DNA of 64,000 nucleotides from Cryomorphaceae bacterium (lineage in GTDB: Bacteria; Bacteroidota; Bacteroidia; Flavobacteriales_D; SKUL01): positions 1 to 64,000 of the forward strand of contig REDV01000059.1 in NCBI GenBank assembly GCA_007695365.1, read 5' to 3'. Positions 1-8,736 of the stretch are shown here, piece after piece. Position 1 is the stretch's first letter. Each line of letters opens with the position of its first letter. The position numbers and the translations under genes are program-made. Below the pieces are notes generated by a model. It was not told where the DNA came from. It searched no databases and saw only the letters and a list, made by a program, of their open reading frames with translations.

Positions 1-20
1 TGAGGGAATCTCGATCGGCT

Positions 21-107
21 CCCTCTTGCTCAATCCTGTCCTCCTCTTGCTCTATACTCTTGCTCCAAACTGTTTTCCCTCTTGCTCAAGACTCTTGCTC
101 AATCCTC
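21..107. repeat. Degenerate CTCTTGCTC repeat cluster (left copy)
   Basis: At least five copies of CTCTTGCTC or CTCTTGCTCnAnnCT lie here, interrupted by short variable spacers. The same unit forms a longer array at 4299-4645, so the two clusters bracket the sigma factor/CHAT locus. There are no uniform repeat lengths or unique spacers, so this is not a CRISPR array. One copy supplies the TTG of the promoter predicted for the sigma gene. Confidence 0.8.
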
Positions 108-150: not shown

Positions 151-720
151 CTGAAATCCGACGACAATTATATCATCGCAGAAATTCTACGAGGTAACAA
201 CAGATGTCTTGGTGAACTGTACCGTATACATCGTGATGCCTTTATAAAAATGGTGCGACGGGATTTTGGTGCCAATGAGGAGCAGGCCAAGGATGCTTTT
301 CAGGAAGCTCTGATTGCCTTTCATCAAAACATTTGCAGTAAAAAGCTGACGGAGCTTACCTGTAGTGTCCGGTCTTATTTGTTCCAGCTCGGAATACACA
401 AAATCCTCAATCTTCTGAAAAAGGAGCGACGCCTGACTTACGATAACGATCTTCAATTGATTCAAGGGAAAGAATTCGAAGATTATATGAACGAAGACCG
501 TTTAGAGTCTATTCAGGAACAAATTGGTAAGGCACTTGAAAAACTCCCCGAAGACTGCCGGAAAGTTTTGAAGTTGTATTACTACCACAACTATGATATG
601 GATAGTATTGCCCGTGAAATGGGATACAAAAATGCCGATACGGCCAAATCGAAAAAGTTGCTGTCGATGAAAAAGTTGCTGACTGAATTGAAGAGAATGA
701 CATTGTTATTGTTGCTTTGA
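151..720 (+). CDS. ECF-type RNA polymerase sigma-70 factor
   Basis: Alternative sigma factor that would direct RNA polymerase to a small regulon. Region 2 is visible in the N-terminal half (LGELYRIHRDAF, then DAFQEALIAFHQN). Region 4 is in the C-terminal half (LEKLPEDCRKVLKLYYYHNYDMDSIAREMG, a helix-turn-helix). The first in-frame ATG is at 250, but the frame is open from 133 and the residues before that ATG (DDNYIIAEILRGN, LGELYR) look like the start of region 2. I therefore extend the gene to a CTG at 151; no ATG, GTG or TTG exists in frame between 133 and 250, so the exact start is uncertain. The stop overlaps the next gene as TGATG, which suggests translational coupling to a membrane TPR protein that may be its anti-sigma partner. 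Confidence 0.8.
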   Translation: MKSDDNYIIAEILRGNNRCLGELYRIHRDAFIKMVRRDFGANEEQAKDAFQEALIAFHQNICSKKLTELTCSVRSYLFQLGIHKILNLLKKERRLTYDNDLQLIQGKEFEDYMNEDRLESIQEQIGKALEKLPEDCRKVLKLYYYHNYDMDSIAREMGYKNADTAKSKKLLSMKKLLTELKRMTLLLLL

Positions 721-1436
721 TGAACATACCCGAAGAATATATCATCTTGTTTGAGTCCTATGGACGGGGAGAACTTTCCGATCAGGAGAAGAAAGATTTT
801 GAAGCGCGCTTATCGTACGATACGGATTTTGGGGAAGCTTTTGCCCGGTTCCGGCTTATTGAAAAAGGCATTCAGGAGCATTATCGCAATGAACTTCGGG
901 ATAATTTTAAGGAAATTGACAAAGAGCTGGATAGTAAATCTCCCGGTGTGATTAACTTCAGAAAGCTGGTCTGGATAGGTACATCGGTGGCCGCCGTGTT
1001 GCTCATTGGGTTGTCTGTTTACCACAATTTTTCCCACGATCACAAGTACAAAGAACTGGCACTACAATACTGGCCAGAGGAGGAAGGCCTGCCGGTAAAA
1101 ATGAGCACAGCAGGTAAGTATGATGCCGCAATGAATGCCTATAAACAAAGTCAATGGGCAGAAGCCGAAGCATTACTCACGGAAATTTCTTCTTCGGATA
1201 CCGCGCTGTATTTCCTGGGTATTGTGCATTTTAAACAAGAGAATTACACTGAAGCGTTGGAGCATTTCAGTAGAGTACCTGAATATTCACGTTGGTTTCC
1301 CGAAAGTGAGTTTAGACGGGCATTAATATTTATGATAAAAAATGAGCCTGACTCTACTTCCATTATTCTAAACCGTCTGATGAAGGCACAATCTGGGTGT
1401 GAAAGTAAGGCAAAAGAATTATTGCTGAAAATTTAG
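720..1436 (+). CDS. Single-pass membrane TPR protein, putative anti-sigma factor
   Basis: About 238 residues. The cytoplasmic N-terminal part (about residues 1-78) carries the pattern YGRGELSDQEKKDFEARL seen in Bacteroidota membrane partners of ECF sigma factors. One membrane helix follows (VWIGTSVAAVLLIGLSVY, about 82-100), then an extracytoplasmic part with TPR-like helices (YNAYKQSQWAEAEALL, ALYFLGIVHFKQENYTEALEHF). It has no HxxxCxxC zinc anti-sigma motif. ATG at 720 shares its A with the sigma stop codon; a TTG at 717 is less likely. The gene order and topology suggest that it holds the sigma factor at the membrane and senses an envelope signal, but this is inference. Confidence 0.7.
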   Translation: MNIPEEYIILFESYGRGELSDQEKKDFEARLSYDTDFGEAFARFRLIEKGIQEHYRNELRDNFKEIDKELDSKSPGVINFRKLVWIGTSVAAVLLIGLSVYHNFSHDHKYKELALQYWPEEEGLPVKMSTAGKYDAAMNAYKQSQWAEAEALLTEISSSDTALYFLGIVHFKQENYTEALEHFSRVPEYSRWFPESEFRRALIFMIKNEPDSTSIILNRLMKAQSGCESKAKELLLKI

Positions 1437-1506
1437 GCGTTAAAGTCGCTTACTGTTTACTATTTCGATGGATAAACAGAAGTTTTAATGATCAGCCTAA
1501 ATTGAA

Positions 1507-1758
1507 ATGCACAGAAAACTGCTGTTTAGTATCATTCATTTGTTTGTAAGAAGTCATTTCGATCGAACTACGTTTTTTATTATCGTGGCGACTCTATTGA
1601 TAGGTTGGGCGAAATACAAGAGTGAACGTTTTCAATGTTTAAATGGAGATTGTGCATATTCCGAGGAGGGCGAGTTTTTCACGCTTGCCGAATGTCATCG
1701 TAAATGTTTCGTCAATAGCCAGGACAGTGTGCCCCGGGTTTTAAACGCCAAACAATGA
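1507..1758 (+). CDS. Small Cys-rich membrane protein
   Basis: 83 residues: a basic N-terminus, one hydrophobic segment (TTFFIIVATLLIGWA, about 21-36), then a short domain with four cysteines in the pattern C-x4-C-x(n)-GEFFTLAEC-x3-C. This C..C..G-F/Y..L..C...C arrangement recurs, in my recollection, in small Bacteroidota proteins, where it may form a disulphide-bonded or metal-binding knot. It lies 70 bp after the TPR membrane protein on the same strand and could be third in the sigma operon. No function is known to me. A spurious ORF is possible, but the cysteine pattern argues that it is real. Confidence 0.55.
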   Translation: MHRKLLFSIIHLFVRSHFDRTTFFIIVATLLIGWAKYKSERFQCLNGDCAYSEEGEFFTLAECHRKCFVNSQDSVPRVLNAKQ

Positions 1759-1853
1759 TATTATGGGAAAGATTACCTGATTCATTTAGCATTCTTGCCA
1801 TTCAACCCATGTTATACAATGGGCTAAAGACCAATGAATTGTTTCGGTTCAAA

Positions 1854-4250
1854 TCACCGTTTTCGCCACCATATACCCAACGTAATCGCGACAATCAATC
1901 CCACAGCGGCCATTTGCCAAAAACGAAAAGGTTCGGAAAGCACTTCAGATTCGAACACGATATCCCGCCCCACCAGCCAATGCCCTGCCCAATAATACGG
2001 CGCGGCCTGGTTTGAATTTGCCGCTTGTGCGATGTGCGCATGTTTCGCCTGTCGCAAGGCGGAGGAAGAAGTTTCGCCTTGGCGCAGATGCTGGTAGAAT
2101 TCACCCATAATACGATTGGAGGTTTTGTCGTCCACCTCCCACAGGTTGCTGAGCACGGATCGGGCACCGGCGCTGAAAAAAGCGCGGGTAAAGCCGTGTA
2201 CACCATCGTCGGTAAATACTATTCCCCGCGACGAATTACAAGCATTCAGCACCACCAAATGGGAATTGATTTTGTGCTGATAAACCTCGTTTAATCTCAA
2301 TCTGGTGTGCCCCAGCACCAATTCAGAATATTCCGAATGATCGGGTTCGATAAGACCATGCGTGCTGAGGTGAACCACCGATGCGGGGGTATTGAACAAT
2401 TGAGCGATATCAATGACCGAATCGGTAAACGCTTTTCCCCACTTCTGTTGCTCCGCTGTTTTAGCCAACTGCCGCGAAAAAGGCAATTCAGAAAATGAGC
2501 TATTGGCAAGCGCTGCCGGTGCATAAAGTGCCAATGAGAATGGCATCGTATCCGGTTTCGACTGAAATGTAGCAGAGGAAAGCACGTATTCTGTTTCAAA
2601 ACGATTGATAAAGTAATCCAGCTTTCGGTAATCTTTGGAATCTATTCCTTCATCAGAACAGAGCAGTGCGTCAAACGGAATGTTATTCGTTTCGCCGTAC
2701 GGACAGATATACAGCTTGTTAATGCCCGTAAAGTCTATTTCGCCGAACATGTCGGCATAAAGGCTCAGCGCATTTTCACAATAGCTGTTGTAGTCCGGGT
2801 TGATAATTGACGCATTGAGGCTCTTGATTCGCGGTCGAATGGGGAATGGCAGAGAATGTGTCACCACCGTGTCGGGGAATATGGCCATGACTATGTTCTG
2901 TTTCGATAGGTAAAGAAACAAGTCCAGGAAACACTCGCCCGGTTTGAGCTGCTGCTGAAGTTGTTGAAGGGAAAGATGTGTCTTTGGCCGTGTCTCTCCG
3001 TCAGAATACTTGATAAGATCAAAGTATTTCAATCGCTGATTGGCCGAAAACATTTTTTCAAGAGAAAAATCTCTTCCCAGTCGTTGTTTTTCCAGCTCAA
3101 GATAATAAGTGAGATTGTAGGGAATAAGGTGATAAGTGGCCAGATACTGATTAATGTGTTTGGATGTAAACTCCCCGTGAATAATTTTCCAAAGTGAAGT
3201 GGCGATGGTGTTGAGCTGAATCAGCCGGTCAAAATATTCCGGGTTCTCTGTTTGGTGGAATACGTCAATCAAGTTCACGGAATAAACCCTGAGGCACATC
3301 AAAAGATCAATCTTGTTCGGGATAGCGCGCAACAATTCCTCGTTGGTGGAATCTGAAATCCCCCACGCGTTCAATGCTTTTTCAAAGTGTTTGTTCGAAG
3401 CAGAATATTTTTCAGGTTGCCTTTCGATGGGGACGCGCCAATAACTCATGGCCTGTACAAAATGGGTAAGTGCCTTTTCATAGTGTGTGTCATCATACAA
3501 TTCGGCCCAAATGTTCAACGCCCGGTTGTAGTACTTATTCGCAGAAGCAAAAAACTGTTCACCTTCCTGCTCTTTCCCAGGTGTTTGATATCCACGACCA
3601 ATCATGTCCTGGTATGCATTACCAAGCAGGTGGTAGGTTTTGGCCAGGTGGTGCCTTGGTGTTTGGTGCGCCAATTGAAATTCAACTGAGCGTTCGTATA
3701 GCCTCCAAACTTCGGAGTACACAGGATGCCATTTGTCGTATTCATATCCATCATAAGTGGCAAGTAGTTTATCCGATTGCGCAAGGATGTTCCATATCCG
3801 GTAAATATCAATTTCGAGTTGTTGTTCAGTCGTCAGGTTTTGAATCAGAAGGCGACAACTGTCGGCAAAAGCTTTGGCCTGCAGATGGTGAATTTTTTCG
3901 TAGTGATAACTGGAAAGCAGGGCGTAATTCCACGCGAGTCGGTAGTCGCCTTTCTTGTATAACTGATTTCTGAGCGCATTGGCCTTTTTCCAATACACGA
4001 GCGCCTGTTCCACGTCACCGCGGATTTTGTAAACAAAGCCGCGAAGGGTGTAAAGTTCAGATTGAAAAGCCGTTGAAACTGAGGTGTCCGCAAGAAGTTT
4101 TTGAATTTCACTTTCGGCATCAACGAGTTGCCCGGAAAACAAAAGTTGATTTATTCTAGCCGAATGCTGCACTTCCTCAATCTGCGCATTGATTTCATGG
4201 AAAAACAGGCTCCAAAAACAAATCAATACAAATACAGGAAATTTTAACAT
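1854..4250 (-). CDS. Exported TPR-CHAT caspase-like protease with C-terminal membrane anchor
   Basis: About 798 residues from the ATG at 4250, which begins a clear signal peptide (MLKFPVFVLICFWSLFF, cleavage near NAQ). A longer frame to 4361 runs into repeat DNA and is rejected. The middle contains many TPR-like helical pairs. The C-terminal third is a CHAT domain of the caspase clan: the His is in LSTHG (about residue 631) and the Cys in VLNACNSS (about 671), followed by GFTRAFFSAGARSVLSNLW. A final membrane helix (MAAVGLIVAITLGIWW) ends in RKR, so the protease would sit in the periplasm, anchored to the inner membrane. It is convergent with the sigma/anti-sigma genes. Substrate unknown; the adjacent membrane TPR protein is a candidate. 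Confidence 0.85.
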   Translation of the reverse strand: MLKFPVFVLICFWSLFFHEINAQIEEVQHSARINQLLFSGQLVDAESEIQKLLADTSVSTAFQSELYTLRGFVYKIRGDVEQALVYWKKANALRNQLYKKGDYRLAWNYALLSSYHYEKIHHLQAKAFADSCRLLIQNLTTEQQLEIDIYRIWNILAQSDKLLATYDGYEYDKWHPVYSEVWRLYERSVEFQLAHQTPRHHLAKTYHLLGNAYQDMIGRGYQTPGKEQEGEQFFASANKYYNRALNIWAELYDDTHYEKALTHFVQAMSYWRVPIERQPEKYSASNKHFEKALNAWGISDSTNEELLRAIPNKIDLLMCLRVYSVNLIDVFHQTENPEYFDRLIQLNTIATSLWKIIHGEFTSKHINQYLATYHLIPYNLTYYLELEKQRLGRDFSLEKMFSANQRLKYFDLIKYSDGETRPKTHLSLQQLQQQLKPGECFLDLFLYLSKQNIVMAIFPDTVVTHSLPFPIRPRIKSLNASIINPDYNSYCENALSLYADMFGEIDFTGINKLYICPYGETNNIPFDALLCSDEGIDSKDYRKLDYFINRFETEYVLSSATFQSKPDTMPFSLALYAPAALANSSFSELPFSRQLAKTAEQQKWGKAFTDSVIDIAQLFNTPASVVHLSTHGLIEPDHSEYSELVLGHTRLRLNEVYQHKINSHLVVLNACNSSRGIVFTDDGVHGFTRAFFSAGARSVLSNLWEVDDKTSNRIMGEFYQHLRQGETSSSALRQAKHAHIAQAANSNQAAPYYWAGHWLVGRDIVFESEVLSEPFRFWQMAAVGLIVAITLGIWWRKR

Positions 4251-4298
4251 CAAAATGAGGTTGCAGCGGGTTGGTGTCGCGGAACGCAAGATAGGCAG

Positions 4299-4645
4299 AA
4301 TTGAGCAAGAGAGAAAGCAGCAAGAGCGCGAGTTTTGAGTTTTGAGGGAGTTATGAATCACGATCGAGGACCGATCCTCTTGCTCAAAACTCTTGCTCCA
4401 AACTGGTATTGGAACAGCAAGAGCACGAGTTTCGAGTTTTGAGGGAGTTTAGAATGACACAGTCTTTCTCTCTTGCTCGAGACTCAAACTCCACACTGTC
4501 CTTGACTGTCCCCCCTCTTGCTCAAAACTCTTGCTCAAAACTCTTGCTCAAAACTGTTGCTCCAAACTGACTTCCTCTTGCTCAAAACTCTTGCTCAAAA
4601 CTGTTGCTCCAAACTGACTTCCTCTTGCTCAAAACTCTTGCTCCC
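4299..4645. repeat. Tandem and inverted CTCTTGCTCAAAACT repeat array (right copy)
   Basis: The array is built from a 15-bp unit CTCTTGCTCAAAACT and shortened forms. A higher-order unit of 47 bp at 4574-4620 is preceded by a 60-bp version at 4514-4573 (one extra CTTGCTCAAAACT) and followed by a partial copy from 4621. Inverted units also occur: 4320-4352 and 4417-4449 are 33-bp near-identical copies carrying GCAAGAGC and TTTTGAGGGAGTT. The array separates the CHAT gene from the thioredoxin gene, and its last unit encodes the C-terminus and stop codon of the thioredoxin protein. Confidence 0.85.
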
Positions 4646-5237
4646 TGCTGTCTTCCCCAATTACTAGCTCCACGGCTTTCTTACTTCCCCAATTCCGCAT
4701 TCCTTCCGATCGGTGGATGATTTCGTTCGCGGTGTTGATGACCAGGGTAGTTGGGAGCGAAGATGCCTCAAGTTCAGGGGGTGCGTTTTGGAGGGGAAAA
4801 TACACGGGTAGGTCCCAACCGTGGTTTTCGAGAAAGGCCCTTACTTTTTCGGGCGGGTCGTAGGTAACCAGTACAAAATGGGCTTCACCACCGGTTTGTT
4901 CCATCAATGACAGGATAGACGGCATCTCTGCACGGCAAGGTGCACACCACGTAGCCCAGAAATTCAGAAACAAGGGTTTGTCCGAAAAATCCGCCAAAAC
5001 GAATCTGTTGCCGTTGAGGTCGGCAAGTTGCCAGTTCAGTGTCGAAGCGTCAAGCGCCTGCTTTTCATTGGCCTTCGTGCTCCCGAAAATTCCGGTTTGA
5101 ATCAATCCGCGCTGAACCCATACTCTGCCATCGGGGATTACCAATAGAACGAGCACCGTCAAAAGTACTGCATCCCAAAAGATGGATACCGGCCCTCGCT
5201 GTTTGTAACGCTCCCAAAAATGCTTGATTTTTTGCAT
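4629..5237 (-). CDS. Membrane-anchored TlpA/ResA-like thioredoxin
   Basis: About 202 residues from the ATG at 5237 (a TTG two codons earlier is possible). An N-terminal membrane helix (AVLLTVLVLLVIP, about 23-36) is followed by a thioredoxin fold with the active site WCAPC (Cys 98 and 101) inside FLNFWATWCAPCRAEMP, and the cis-Pro loop SLPTTLVI. Such proteins reduce disulphides on the extracytoplasmic side, for example during cytochrome c maturation or in extracytoplasmic redox repair. The last residues (DSREQEF and the stop) are encoded by the neighbouring CTCTTGCTC repeat, so the tail has probably been rewritten by repeat expansion. No cytochrome genes are adjacent. Confidence 0.85.
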   Translation of the reverse strand: MQKIKHFWERYKQRGPVSIFWDAVLLTVLVLLVIPDGRVWVQRGLIQTGIFGSTKANEKQALDASTLNWQLADLNGNRFVLADFSDKPLFLNFWATWCAPCRAEMPSILSLMEQTGGEAHFVLVTYDPPEKVRAFLENHGWDLPVYFPLQNAPPELEASSLPTTLVINTANEIIHRSEGMRNWGSKKAVELVIGEDSREQEF

Positions 5238-5414
5238 GCACAAAGGTAGTAGGAGGATGGTTGACTATCCGTATGATATGTTACACACTATACCATTTGC
5301 CCTTGATTGGTCCGGGCATTGTGCACCTTTATTGAGTTAATACCGGGCTTTGTCGGTTTTTGGAAACCAGCTAGCGCCCACACCGTATCAGAGCATATTC
5401 AAATCAATACAGAC

Positions 5415-6764
5415 ATGATACGCCAAGTTCTTGTGATTTTCTTTTTTTCAGGATGGATTTTTTCGACCTACAGTCAGGATTTACTTCCCCATATAGGAGT
5501 GTCATCTCAACCAGAATGGAATGACACAATTTGTGAACCTCCGGTATATGATGGCAGCTTTCATGAAGTGGGGTTGTTTGTTGGTGATGTGGCACCTGAT
5601 TTCACTCTTTACAATACCCTCGGTGAAGAGCGTCAGTTATCGCAGATGCTTGCTTCGGGTAAACACGTGATGATCGTGAACGGAAGCTATACCTGTTGGA
5701 GATTTCGCGATGAAATTCCTACCATAAACACCATTACAGAGCTTTTTGAGGACCAAATGGAGACATTCGTTGTTTATACAGTTGAGGCCCATCCTCATAT
5801 CGATCTATCACCCTATTCCGGCACATTGTCCACCGGAGCTCGCAATTTTCAAGACAGCGTATTGCTGCGCCAGCCCACTACCTATGGTGAGCGTCTTCAG
5901 AATATTCAGTTTATGACAGAGCGAGACCCTGTTGTTCCTGAGATATTGTTGGATGGAACATGTAATGAGTGGTGGCTCAATTATGGAACAGCTGCTAATC
6001 ATGCCTATCTTATTGACCCAAATGGTGTGATACAGATACGGCATACATGGTTTAATCAGCCACCCCTGGATATTCAGTGTGAACTCACAGAATATTTTGA
6101 GCTCCCGTCTCCGGGTTGTGCCGAGATTGGAACATTTGGATCTTTTGAGATTGAGGTGGATGAAGAACAGGGTACTTTTCAAGAAGGTATTGCCGGACAT
6201 ACGTTAATAGTGCCAGTTACCATTCGGAATTTGTCTGAAACGGATTTTGTCTTTACGGAGATTATGCGTGAATCTGTTAACACTCCTCAAGCATGGCTAA
6301 CCGCTTTGTGTGTTGATATTTGTTTGTCGCCTGGAGTGAACGAAACAACTGCAGCCATTGCACCTGGCGAATCACAATCGTTTACCTTTTACTTTTTTAC
6401 GGACCATGAACCCGGCGAAGGGTCTGCGGTGGTGCGGTTCAAGAATGCAACGAACGCTTTAAACACAGAATGGGTAACCTTTTCAGTAAGTACCCAAAGC
6501 GACGAAACCATTACAAGCCTGGAGTTGGTAAATGAGCCGCAAATCCGATTGTATCCCAATCCCGCTTCACACTGGCTGAGGGTTGATGGTCTCGGTTATG
6601 ACAACACACCGTGGCAGATTTTTAATTCAGCGGGTCGTCTCACTGATGAGGGCTACTTTCACACAGGTGAAAACAATGTGTCGGTTGCGCACCTTCAAAA
6701 AGGAGTGTACGTGATAAGAATAGGTGCTTACCCTGCACAGGTGTTGAGATTTGTGAAGCACTGA
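5415..6764 (+). CDS. Secreted deiodinase-like thioredoxin-fold protein, T9SS type A cargo (copy 1)
   Basis: About 449 residues from the ATG at 5415, chosen because it begins a signal peptide (MIRQVLVIFFFSGWIFSTYSQ). Residues about 55-260 form a redoxin domain resembling the iodothyronine deiodinase family: GSYTCWRFR places Cys94 where deiodinases have selenocysteine, followed by VVYTVEAHPHID, TYGERL and NHAYLIDPNGVI. A beta-sandwich region follows (about 270-370). The last ~75 residues are a T9SS sorting domain (IRLYPNPASHWLRV to the end). Substrate unknown; a thiol-based redox role is inferred. A diverged tandem paralogue lies at 7390-8736. Confidence 0.8.
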   Translation: MIRQVLVIFFFSGWIFSTYSQDLLPHIGVSSQPEWNDTICEPPVYDGSFHEVGLFVGDVAPDFTLYNTLGEERQLSQMLASGKHVMIVNGSYTCWRFRDEIPTINTITELFEDQMETFVVYTVEAHPHIDLSPYSGTLSTGARNFQDSVLLRQPTTYGERLQNIQFMTERDPVVPEILLDGTCNEWWLNYGTAANHAYLIDPNGVIQIRHTWFNQPPLDIQCELTEYFELPSPGCAEIGTFGSFEIEVDEEQGTFQEGIAGHTLIVPVTIRNLSETDFVFTEIMRESVNTPQAWLTALCVDICLSPGVNETTAAIAPGESQSFTFYFFTDHEPGEGSAVVRFKNATNALNTEWVTFSVSTQSDETITSLELVNEPQIRLYPNPASHWLRVDGLGYDNTPWQIFNSAGRLTDEGYFHTGENNVSVAHLQKGVYVIRIGAYPAQVLRFVKH

Positions 6765-7389
6765 TGAGCAGTTTTAGGTTACGTGCCTTTGCCACATGGT
6801 GGTGACGCTCGCCCAATTAAGGTCTTGGCAATAGCATGGTAGGGCGCAAGGATTTGTTAATCAATAATATAAATTCATTTCCCAATTTGCTGGCCTGGTA
6901 AACACACTCAATGTTATGGTTCGGTGTGCGCGGAACATAAGACTTCTAAAGTGCCTGTTGCCCAATCATGCTGTGTATGCGTATCCATGAAAACACATAA
7001 GACCGTGTAATAAATGATAAGTATTATCACGGGCTATGGCTCATGAAGCGGCGCGTACTTTTGTTCGAAATACAGCCTGTTTTTTTGATGCTAGTCACAA
7101 AAAATGCCATTTTGCTTCGAGTCCCGGGGCAATTTAGAGGCTAAATCATAGTGGCGTCCCAAAAAGATGTTTTTTACATTGAAGATACATGCAGGTTTAT
7201 CCTGCGTACAGAGCTATTCGTCGATTGTGTGCTTGTGTGTGCTTTCTGACGATGGATGAAAACCTGCAGTTGGTTTGTAGTGGTTTGGAAGTATGTTGGT
7301 GCCGTTTAGGATACCAACATCCACCATGGGTTGCAAGAACAGAAAAGGTGGGTCTTTGTATTATTAGGGCAACCTGTATTGAAACCATT
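6765..7389. other. Intergenic region without a gene
   Basis: About 625 bp between the two paralogous T9SS proteins. A stem-loop is visible at 7003-7032 (CCGTG and CACGG outer arms plus AT-rich inner pairing) without a following T run. A TACTTTTG box at 7056-7063 could be a promoter -7 element for the downstream gene, but no TTG sits at the expected distance. I see no convincing ORF or RNA gene. Confidence 0.5.
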
Positions 7390-8736
7390 ATGAAACCATT
7401 TTACATTGCGACTGTCGTCGCGTTGTCTAGTTTTTCTATCTCCTTAGCTCAGAACCTTGAGCCCCACATTGGGTTGAGTTCGCAGCCGCAGCCTTCAGAT
7501 TCTATTTGCCCTATTCCGCTGGCACCATCCTTCATGGATAATGAAGGTTATATGGTAGGAGAGGTAGTAGCTGATTTTACCCTTTATTCCCATGATGGAC
7601 AAGAAGTAACACTTTCTGAGGTCCTGGCGGAAAATAAACCGGTTTTACTGGTAGGATCCAACTATTCATGTTGGCGTTTTCGCGATCAGATTGCGCCTAT
7701 TAATGCCATCGTAGACTACTATGGCGATTTGTTGAATGCCTATTATGTCTATACGGTTGAAGCCCATCCACATATTGACATTTCGCCTTACAATGGTCAA
7801 TTGTGGACCGGCCAACGCAATTTTGACGACGGTGTGCTTATTCGTCAGGCTGTAACTTACGGCGACAGGCTCGAGGCCATTGATGAAATGCTGGAGAACT
7901 ATACCCCCATACCTCAGATTCTGGTAGATGGACCGTGTAATGAGTTTTGGCTGAACTACGGTCAAATGCCGAACCATGCTTATCTCATAGATCGTCATGG
8001 CATCGTACAGATACGCCAAACCTGGGTTAATTCGCCTCCCGCCGATTTGTGGTGTGAGCTTGGAGAGTATTTTGATGACATTACCCCCAACTGCAATGAT
8101 GCCGGAGTAAACGGCAGTTTCGAGGTGGTGATTGATGAAGAGGCGGGAACGGTAGGTTATGGGTTTCCTGGTGAAACAATCATAGTTCCGGTGATGATTA
8201 ATAACCTTTCCGAAACAGACAATGTGCACATAGAAATCAACCGTACAGAAGTCTATACACCTGATTCCTGGCAAACTTCCCTTTGTGTGGATATATGTTT
8301 AGCCCCTACTGTAAATACTACTACGACCGTGATTCCTCCGGGGGGCTCGCAGTCATTCAGCTTCTACTTTTTTACCGGTGCAGACGGTGAAGCTTCAGGT
8401 TCCGGGATTGTGCGTTTCAGCAATGCTGTGAACAGTGGAAACATCGAATACGTAGAATTTTCCGCTATCACACTTATTCCCACCAATGTGGATTCCGAAA
8501 ACCAAAACCCCTTACAAGTTTACCCTGTTCCTGCCAGCAACATGCTCTTTCTTGAGCGGAATGGGTACGAACCCATGCCCTGGCAGATCTTTTCTTTAAG
8601 TGGAGCCTTGATTCAGGAAGGTACCATGGTTTCTGGACGCCATGAAATCGATATCAGTAACTTGCCGGCAGGAAGTTACCTGCTTCGCGGCGGCAGCAAT
8701 GAGCAATGGGAGGTGAAGAGGTTTGTGAAAATGTAA
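7390..8736 (+). CDS. Secreted deiodinase-like thioredoxin-fold protein, T9SS type A cargo (copy 2)
   Basis: About 448 residues from the ATG at 7390, the first that gives a signal peptide (MKPFYIATVVALSSFSISLAQ). It aligns along its whole length with the protein at 5415-6764: Cys94 in SNYSCWRFR at the position of deiodinase selenocysteine, VYTVEAHPHID, VTYGDRLEAID, NHAYLIDRHGIVQIRQTW, a beta-sandwich with the shared motif CVDICLAP, then a T9SS sorting domain (LQVYPVPASNMLFL to RFVKM). The two copies differ at many positions, so the duplication is not recent. Conservation of Cys94 in both argues for a catalytic or redox role. The substrate cannot be read from the sequence. Confidence 0.8.
   Translation: MKPFYIATVVALSSFSISLAQNLEPHIGLSSQPQPSDSICPIPLAPSFMDNEGYMVGEVVADFTLYSHDGQEVTLSEVLAENKPVLLVGSNYSCWRFRDQIAPINAIVDYYGDLLNAYYVYTVEAHPHIDISPYNGQLWTGQRNFDDGVLIRQAVTYGDRLEAIDEMLENYTPIPQILVDGPCNEFWLNYGQMPNHAYLIDRHGIVQIRQTWVNSPPADLWCELGEYFDDITPNCNDAGVNGSFEVVIDEEAGTVGYGFPGETIIVPVMINNLSETDNVHIEINRTEVYTPDSWQTSLCVDICLAPTVNTTTTVIPPGGSQSFSFYFFTGADGEASGSGIVRFSNAVNSGNIEYVEFSAITLIPTNVDSENQNPLQVYPVPASNMLFLERNGYEPMPWQIFSLSGALIQEGTMVSGRHEIDISNLPAGSYLLRGGSNEQWEVKRFVKM

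Follow-up and report, generated by a model that had tools for sequence, protein, structure and literature searches.

The TPR-CHAT protein encoded close to the start of the window (the whole 64,000-nucleotide stretch of Cryomorphaceae DNA that was analysed, contig REDV01000059.1, the first base of which is the end of the contig) acts, with good confidence, as site-1 protease on an ECF anti-sigma factor in a membrane signalling module that is found in many related bacteria. The predicted specificity pocket of this protease and a candidate cut site in the anti-sigma factor have changed jointly on several occasions in evolution, which makes it very probable that a protease located outside the inner membrane cleaves the protein that acts as the brake on the sigma factor.

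The locus (positions 151-4250) consists of genes for an ECF sigma factor (+ strand), a single-pass TPR protein (+ strand), an ORF of 83 amino acids (+ strand) and a convergent CHAT protein (- strand); the first-pass annotation had described an ECF sigma factor, a single-pass TPR protein, a small Cys-rich protein and a convergent CHAT protease, and all of these were found again by translation and by comparison with Pfam and NCBIfam. The sigma factor gene (151..720, + strand) was assigned from its translation, its homologs and matches to Pfam Sigma70_r4_2 (E 1e-7) and NCBIfam sigma70-ECF (E 5e-18), but its start codon is uncertain. The reading frame is open from 133 to 720, bounded by an upstream stop at 130, and has no ATG at the homologous start; the ATG at 250 chosen by the ORF tool would cut into sigma region 2, and the likeliest start by alignment with relatives is near CTG 151. 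The ATG of the TPR protein gene overlaps the sigma stop codon (TGATG).

The TPR protein (238 amino acids, 720..1436, + strand; Pfam, AF2 and anti-sigma matches of its homologs) is probably a transmembrane ECF anti-sigma factor that would inhibit the adjoining sigma factor. The first-pass annotation had placed it in the anti-sigma position, an assignment in line with its adjacency to the sigma gene and its one transmembrane segment. Of 62 homologs, 28 match the NCBIfam anti-sigma model NF052375 (E up to 0.01) and 11 match another model, NF047528; the window protein itself matches TPR models only (Pfam and NCBIfam). Its cytoplasmic N-terminal helical region (residues 1-80, 720..959, + strand), assigned from AF2 helices at residues 5-72 and the positive-inside transmembrane segment of homologs, is presumed to bind the sigma factor. 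It is followed by the transmembrane segment (about residues 85-103, 972..1028, + strand; hydropathy, AF2 helix 84-116) and by an extracytoplasmic TPR domain (residues 135-237, 1122..1430, + strand; Pfam, AF2, Foldseek), with residues 117-134 forming a loop between the transmembrane helix and the TPR domain in the AF2 model (pLDDT 90.5). Nearly all homologs share this plan, with about 80 residues ahead of a single transmembrane segment and an extracytoplasmic TPR domain after it, and 112 of 122 have a single transmembrane segment with positive-inside charge that places the N-terminus inside.

The convergent gene encodes a TPR-CHAT protease of 798 amino acids with a signal peptide and a C-terminal anchor (1854..4250, - strand; Pfam, homologs, AF2, Foldseek); a longer ORF of 835 amino acids has its start within a repeat array. 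The CHAT domain (PF12770, E 6e-45, 154 bits versus a Pfam cut-off of 24) makes the protein a probable member of the CHAT peptidases of clan CD, and proteolysis is predicted. As claimed in the first-pass annotation, the catalytic residues are intact: His631 (2358..2360, - strand) and Cys671 (2238..2240, - strand) are invariant in every linked CHAT aligned. In the AF2 model (pLDDT 84.6) a TPR-like helical region spans about residues 30-430 (2961..4163, - strand; also Pfam TPR_12), and a C-terminal helix (residues 775-797, 1860..1928, - strand), conserved in linked CHATs, is assigned as the transmembrane anchor, which ends in RKR. The N-terminus (MLKFPVFVLICFWSLFFHEINA, 4185..4250, - strand) resembles a signal peptide by translation and hydropathy. 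A simple hydropathy scan of 87 full-length linked CHATs detected a signal-peptide-like hydrophobic N-terminus in 82 and a C-terminal transmembrane segment in 86, of which 84 have a positively charged tail; the sole exception (locus L093) starts with a lipobox-like signal and is therefore probably anchored in another way. The earlier suggestion that the protease faces the periplasm thus agrees with the topology of its relatives, and by prediction both the CHAT and the TPR domain of the anti-sigma factor face this compartment.

The conserved unit is three genes, those of the sigma factor, the TPR anti-sigma factor and the CHAT protease, because neither the 83-amino-acid ORF nor the repeats of the window were found at homologous loci. 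This narrows the self-contained four-gene unit bracketed by repeats that was first proposed: the sigma/TPR/CHAT part holds and the repeats are present at this locus, but the small Cys-rich protein and the repeats drop out as features of the unit. The 83-amino-acid ORF (1507..1758, + strand; translation), which has a transmembrane segment and a Cys-rich tail, is probably outside the conserved module, with no homolog at any fetched locus and a best match among 60 relatives of E 0.017; it was rejected as a module member on these grounds. The repeat CTCTTGCTCNANACT occurs in 12 copies in the window versus none in 100 shuffles. The array of 13-nucleotide repeats is confined to this locus, with the exception of a diverged pair on a different contig, and its left part may be incomplete because the first base of the window is the contig end. 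Being local and absent from homologous loci, the array was rejected as a feature of the module, and no role in the module is supported for it.

Co-occurrence of the four genes first described had been suggested as a check on the module. The window CHAT as sole query in a search of genome contigs returned no relative. In a first survey of CHAT relatives in 60 genomes, most CHATs have sigma and TPR genes next to them, arranged convergently, divergently or as an operon. A phylum-wide search of 297 genomes then used an alignment of the TPR protein as the query and left the CHAT out of it, although the seed alignment was built from CHAT-linked loci and the sample is thus partly dependent on CHAT. 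Among the 62 anti-sigma matches kept (E below 1e-18, mostly full-length), 48 have their gene within 15 kb of a CHAT domain, versus 1.2 expected under uniform placement; conversely, 48 of 72 CHAT domains in 36 genomes are near such an anti-sigma gene. The sigma factor gene accompanies 39 of 40 anti-sigma genes in the second sample. A functional tie is indicated because proximity has been kept through repeated rearrangement. The first-pass annotation had named two findings as counting against its proposal, a lack of co-occurrence of CHAT and sigma genes in other genomes and a CHAT domain predicted in the cytoplasm, and neither was obtained. In several genomes, a gene encoding a PKD-DUF7619-DUF7849 protein lies between the sigma and CHAT genes and is a candidate target.

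The linker between the transmembrane segment and the TPR domain of the anti-sigma factors contains a near-invariant dipeptide of R, K or M followed mostly by G or S (also N). Among 84 proteins, the first position (P1) is occupied by R in 62, by M in 10 and by K in 9. Only two columns of the anti-sigma alignment are more informative, and P1 reaches 3.41 bits versus a maximum of 2.2 in 12 controls in which the linkers were shuffled and realigned. In the window protein the dipeptide is Met128-Ser129 (1101..1106, + strand), located in an unstructured loop of the AF2 model. The column, the shuffle control and covariation with the CHAT strongly support its reading as a putative protease site, and cleavage is predicted to follow Met128 in the window protein and Arg in the majority of relatives.

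The CHAT residue that covaries with P1 is at position 595 (Leu595 in the window protein, 2466..2468, - strand), which is the column that best divides CHATs with Arg or Lys partners from those with Met partners (divergence 0.96; next best, 0.69). Across 87 pairs, all 60 anti-sigma factors with Arg at P1 accompany a CHAT with Glu at 595, and all 23 with Met or Leu accompany a CHAT with another residue or a deletion there; partners of Lys are mixed, with one Glu (L033) and three hydrophobic residues. In a scan of mutual information between columns of the automatic alignments only, P1/595 is the top pair both in the first sample (85,272 column pairs, z 8.6) and in the set enlarged by the second (82,208 pairs, z 9.3). 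In the first sample, the P1 residues at loci L069 and L090 were set to Met by eye, from the adjacent residue. Some P1 residues of the second sample were taken by eye from the linker where the automatic alignment had slipped, and new rows were added to the fixed first alignment instead of being realigned jointly by MAFFT, which slid the P1 column. Further CHAT columns are tied to P1: 629 next to the catalytic His, 669 next to the catalytic Cys and 708 next to the SLWxxDD loop. Residue 595 lies on helix alpha-1, after strand 1 (AF2 residues 590-601), and is predicted from covariation, the AF2 model and comparison with clan CD to be the S1 specificity residue: the S1 residues Asp95 of TbMCA2, Asp365 of MALT1 and Ala47 of the Leu-specific MARTX-CPD are on the same helix (PMC4357240), as are Asp163 of gingipain R and Glu917 of separase (PMC4626109). 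An acidic residue paired with Arg, and a hydrophobic or small residue paired with Met or Leu, is the pattern that would be expected of a P1 pocket. Nearly all of the CHATs that do not come from such sigma loci have Glu at the equivalent of 595.

In the proposed mechanism, the single-pass anti-sigma factor would hold the sigma factor through its cytoplasmic N-terminal domain. From features conserved among its relatives, the TPR-CHAT protease is predicted to be exported and anchored by its C-terminal helix, facing the periplasm as does the anti-sigma TPR domain, so that enzyme and cut site would share one extracytoplasmic compartment. Upon a signal, the CHAT would cut the linker after Met128 in the window protein and after Arg in most relatives, as coevolution strongly suggests. 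A general site-2 protease would then remove the membrane stub, by analogy to RseA and RsiW; a candidate is the single M50 (RseP-type) protein of the genome (PF02163, E 8e-51, at G000:C151), which is weak evidence, since an M50 protease was also found in all 14 control genomes. Cytosolic proteases may also act, and the sigma factor would be freed. The first-pass annotation had offered as plausible that the CHAT cleaves the TPR domain and thereby releases the sigma factor; the proposed cutting is supported by the coevolution of specificity, the predicted position moves from the TPR domain to the juxtamembrane linker, and sigma release would follow as the last of these steps.

The direction of this response could be the opposite. 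The CHAT might cut the same site to shut the response off, with the TPR domain a receptor that is removed while the stub stays inhibitory, or with the anti-sigma factor needed for sigma activity. The cut site lies outside the presumed sigma-binding part, so that a cut alone need not free the sigma factor, and both RseA and Csx30 need further degradation (PMC10028731). Precedent points the other way, however: in RseA, RsiW, Csx30 and CalpT, the sigma factor becomes active once the extracytoplasmic or C-terminal part has been cut, and the genome does encode an M50 site-2 protease. Cleavage as a reset is consequently considered unlikely. Very improbable is a CHAT that does not cut at all, its pocket binding the juxtamembrane motif to signal or to shield the site from another protease: binding alone would also yield coevolution of pocket and peptide, but it needs no catalytic dyad, and His631 and Cys671 do not vary in the linked CHATs aligned.

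A further alternative is that the genes lie together because the CHAT is a sigma-regulated effector with other substrates, the linker motif and its covariation reflecting shared ancestry only. The CHAT tree requires at least 7 changes of P1 type and at least 6 of S1 type; none of 11,012 draws in which independent traits were simulated on the tree matched the observed concordance, although the independent pairs on fully supported branches number only 2, too few for power. Anti-sigma family f20 serves as a control. The site is kept in all six f20 anti-sigma factors with a neighbouring CHAT (R|S, R|S, R|G, M|G, M|G, M|S) and in none of nine that have no neighbouring CHAT, where P1 has been replaced (VT, TV, AL, TG and similar) and a DPGLP-like stretch is retained just before the lost site. 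Fisher's test on these counts gives 2e-4, although they may represent as few as two events. A later f20 sample added six concordant P1/595 pairs and one misfit (L198), in which the CHAT keeps Glu at 595 and the linker has no evident Arg, and two anti-sigma factors elsewhere (L056, L064) keep the site though no CHAT was found in their genomes. Neighbouring genes are often under ECF control, the gene order varies and independent specificity switches are few, all of which would suit an effector with other substrates, but this alternative is very improbable given that all columns share the same ancestry and yet the P1/595 pair ranks first, that 595 is the clan CD S1 position and that the site is lost where the CHAT does not adjoin the anti-sigma gene.

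The open-access papers searched contained no description of the sigma/TPR/CHAT triad; an earlier mention in the ECF reclassification or DdvA papers is possible. A defence-system reading was rejected, as PADLOC gave no match for the window CHAT or anti-sigma factor and one marginal match for the sigma factor. The ECF54 loci also have ECF sigma genes near CHAT-domain genes (PMC8999054), but they are described without an anti-sigma factor. In the CalpL/CalpT/CalpS system the protease CalpL likewise cuts the anti-sigma factor CalpT, but CalpL is of the Lon type, not a CHAT, and is activated by cyclic oligoadenylate (PMC11417357). A parallel in mechanism is DegS/RseA/RpoE, one of the cases of regulated intramembrane proteolysis of anti-sigma factors, in which, as would be expected here, a membrane-anchored periplasmic protease first cuts a single-pass anti-sigma factor and an M50 site-2 protease follows; DegS, however, is a PDZ serine protease, whereas the site-1 enzyme of the window is predicted to be a clan CD cysteine protease with a cut site coded by Arg or Met at P1 beside the membrane.

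Structural comparison pointed to two further systems. In a search of the PDB, a profile of the full-length CHAT was swamped by TPR proteins, and a C-terminal profile gave DdvA, Csx29 and Craspase; Foldseek with the CHAT model ranked Csx29 nearest (8eey, E 2e-16), followed, with similar E values, by human separase (9hma) and then DdvA (8rw5). DdvA/DdvS of Myxococcus xanthus (PDB 8rot, 8rw5) pairs an ECF sigma factor with a transmembrane anti-sigma factor that has a TPR-CHAT-like part, and DdvS is active once DdvA is inactivated (PMC4374960). DdvA matches the window CHAT by fold (E 3e-12) and by profile, but it carries CHAT and anti-sigma factor on one chain, and the window was not filed under DdvA because these parts are split onto separate, convergent genes, although the architecture is still related. 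In Craspase, which belongs to type III-E CRISPR, the TPR-CHAT protease Csx29 cuts Csx30, the inhibitor of the ECF sigma factor CASP-sigma, once in a small flexible loop (residues 427-429), and deletion of M427 blocks cutting (PMC10028731); in a profile alignment that is weak and not firm, the Csx29 residue opposite 595 is not acidic, which would fit Met at P1. Csx29 differs in being bound to and switched by the RNA-guided Cas7-11 complex and in being cytosolic without an export signal, whereas linked CHATs keep a signal-peptide-like N-terminus and a C-terminal transmembrane segment; Csx30 is not a TPR membrane protein, whereas both partners of the window are predicted to be membrane-anchored and to face the periplasm. 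With 26.3 bits against a cut-off of 300 for the NCBIfam Csx29 model NF041237, and with export signals present, the window CHAT was not filed as Craspase, although the logic is still alike.

Bacterial caspase-like proteases have mostly been met in immunity and cell death. It is possible, though on balance doubtful, that a widespread and so far undescribed class of envelope pathways uses TPR-CHAT as a dedicated site-1 protease of ECF anti-sigma factors, with repeated switches from Arg to Met or Leu at P1 matched in enzyme and substrate, and that these were the stock from which the RNA-guided Craspase/CASP-sigma system was recruited. The module as proposed would make a caspase-like enzyme a routine protease of envelope signalling, would supply dozens of enzyme-substrate pairs from nature whose specificity code can be read, and would give the sigma circuit of Craspase a plausible non-CRISPR background.

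The nearest CHAT relative, in genome G018, carries an interrupting stop, and this CHAT and its sigma/anti-sigma pair are encoded on separate contigs (locus L022, G018:C33; locus L174, G018:C37). The linker sequence GIPVKMS is still present in the anti-sigma factor of the G018 pair. Among CHATs linked to sigma/TPR anti-sigma genes, that of locus L093 (2036-4636) has no C-terminal transmembrane segment and begins with a lipobox-like signal, which suggests that it is held to the membrane by an anchor of another type. The CHAT of locus L198, which adjoins a TPR anti-sigma gene, has Glu at the S1 position, yet the corresponding linker contains no evident Arg; this locus is a misfit to the rule that pairs P1 Arg with S1 Glu.

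Arrays of a 13-nt repeat, CTCTTGCTCAAAA, with inverse copies, are located 5' of the sigma operon (window 20-106) and 5' of the CHAT gene (window 4296-4650); the sole further occurrence in the genome is a diverged, hairpin-like pair on another contig (G000:C115, 4940-5120). Within window 151-250, the sigma gene has no ATG at its homologous start position; CTG at 151 may be the start codon, or else the contig end may be imperfect. Farther along the window (5307-8736), two similar tandem ORFs of 485 and 515 amino acids, each with an AhpC/deiodinase-like N-terminal half and a sorting-like C-terminal tail, look like a local duplication.

Within one family, a PKD-DUF7619-DUF7849 protein of about 650-670 amino acids is recurrently encoded between sigma and CHAT, as in homologous loci L062 (7669-9624) and L072 (8585-10600), and its gene is possibly a target of the sigma factor.
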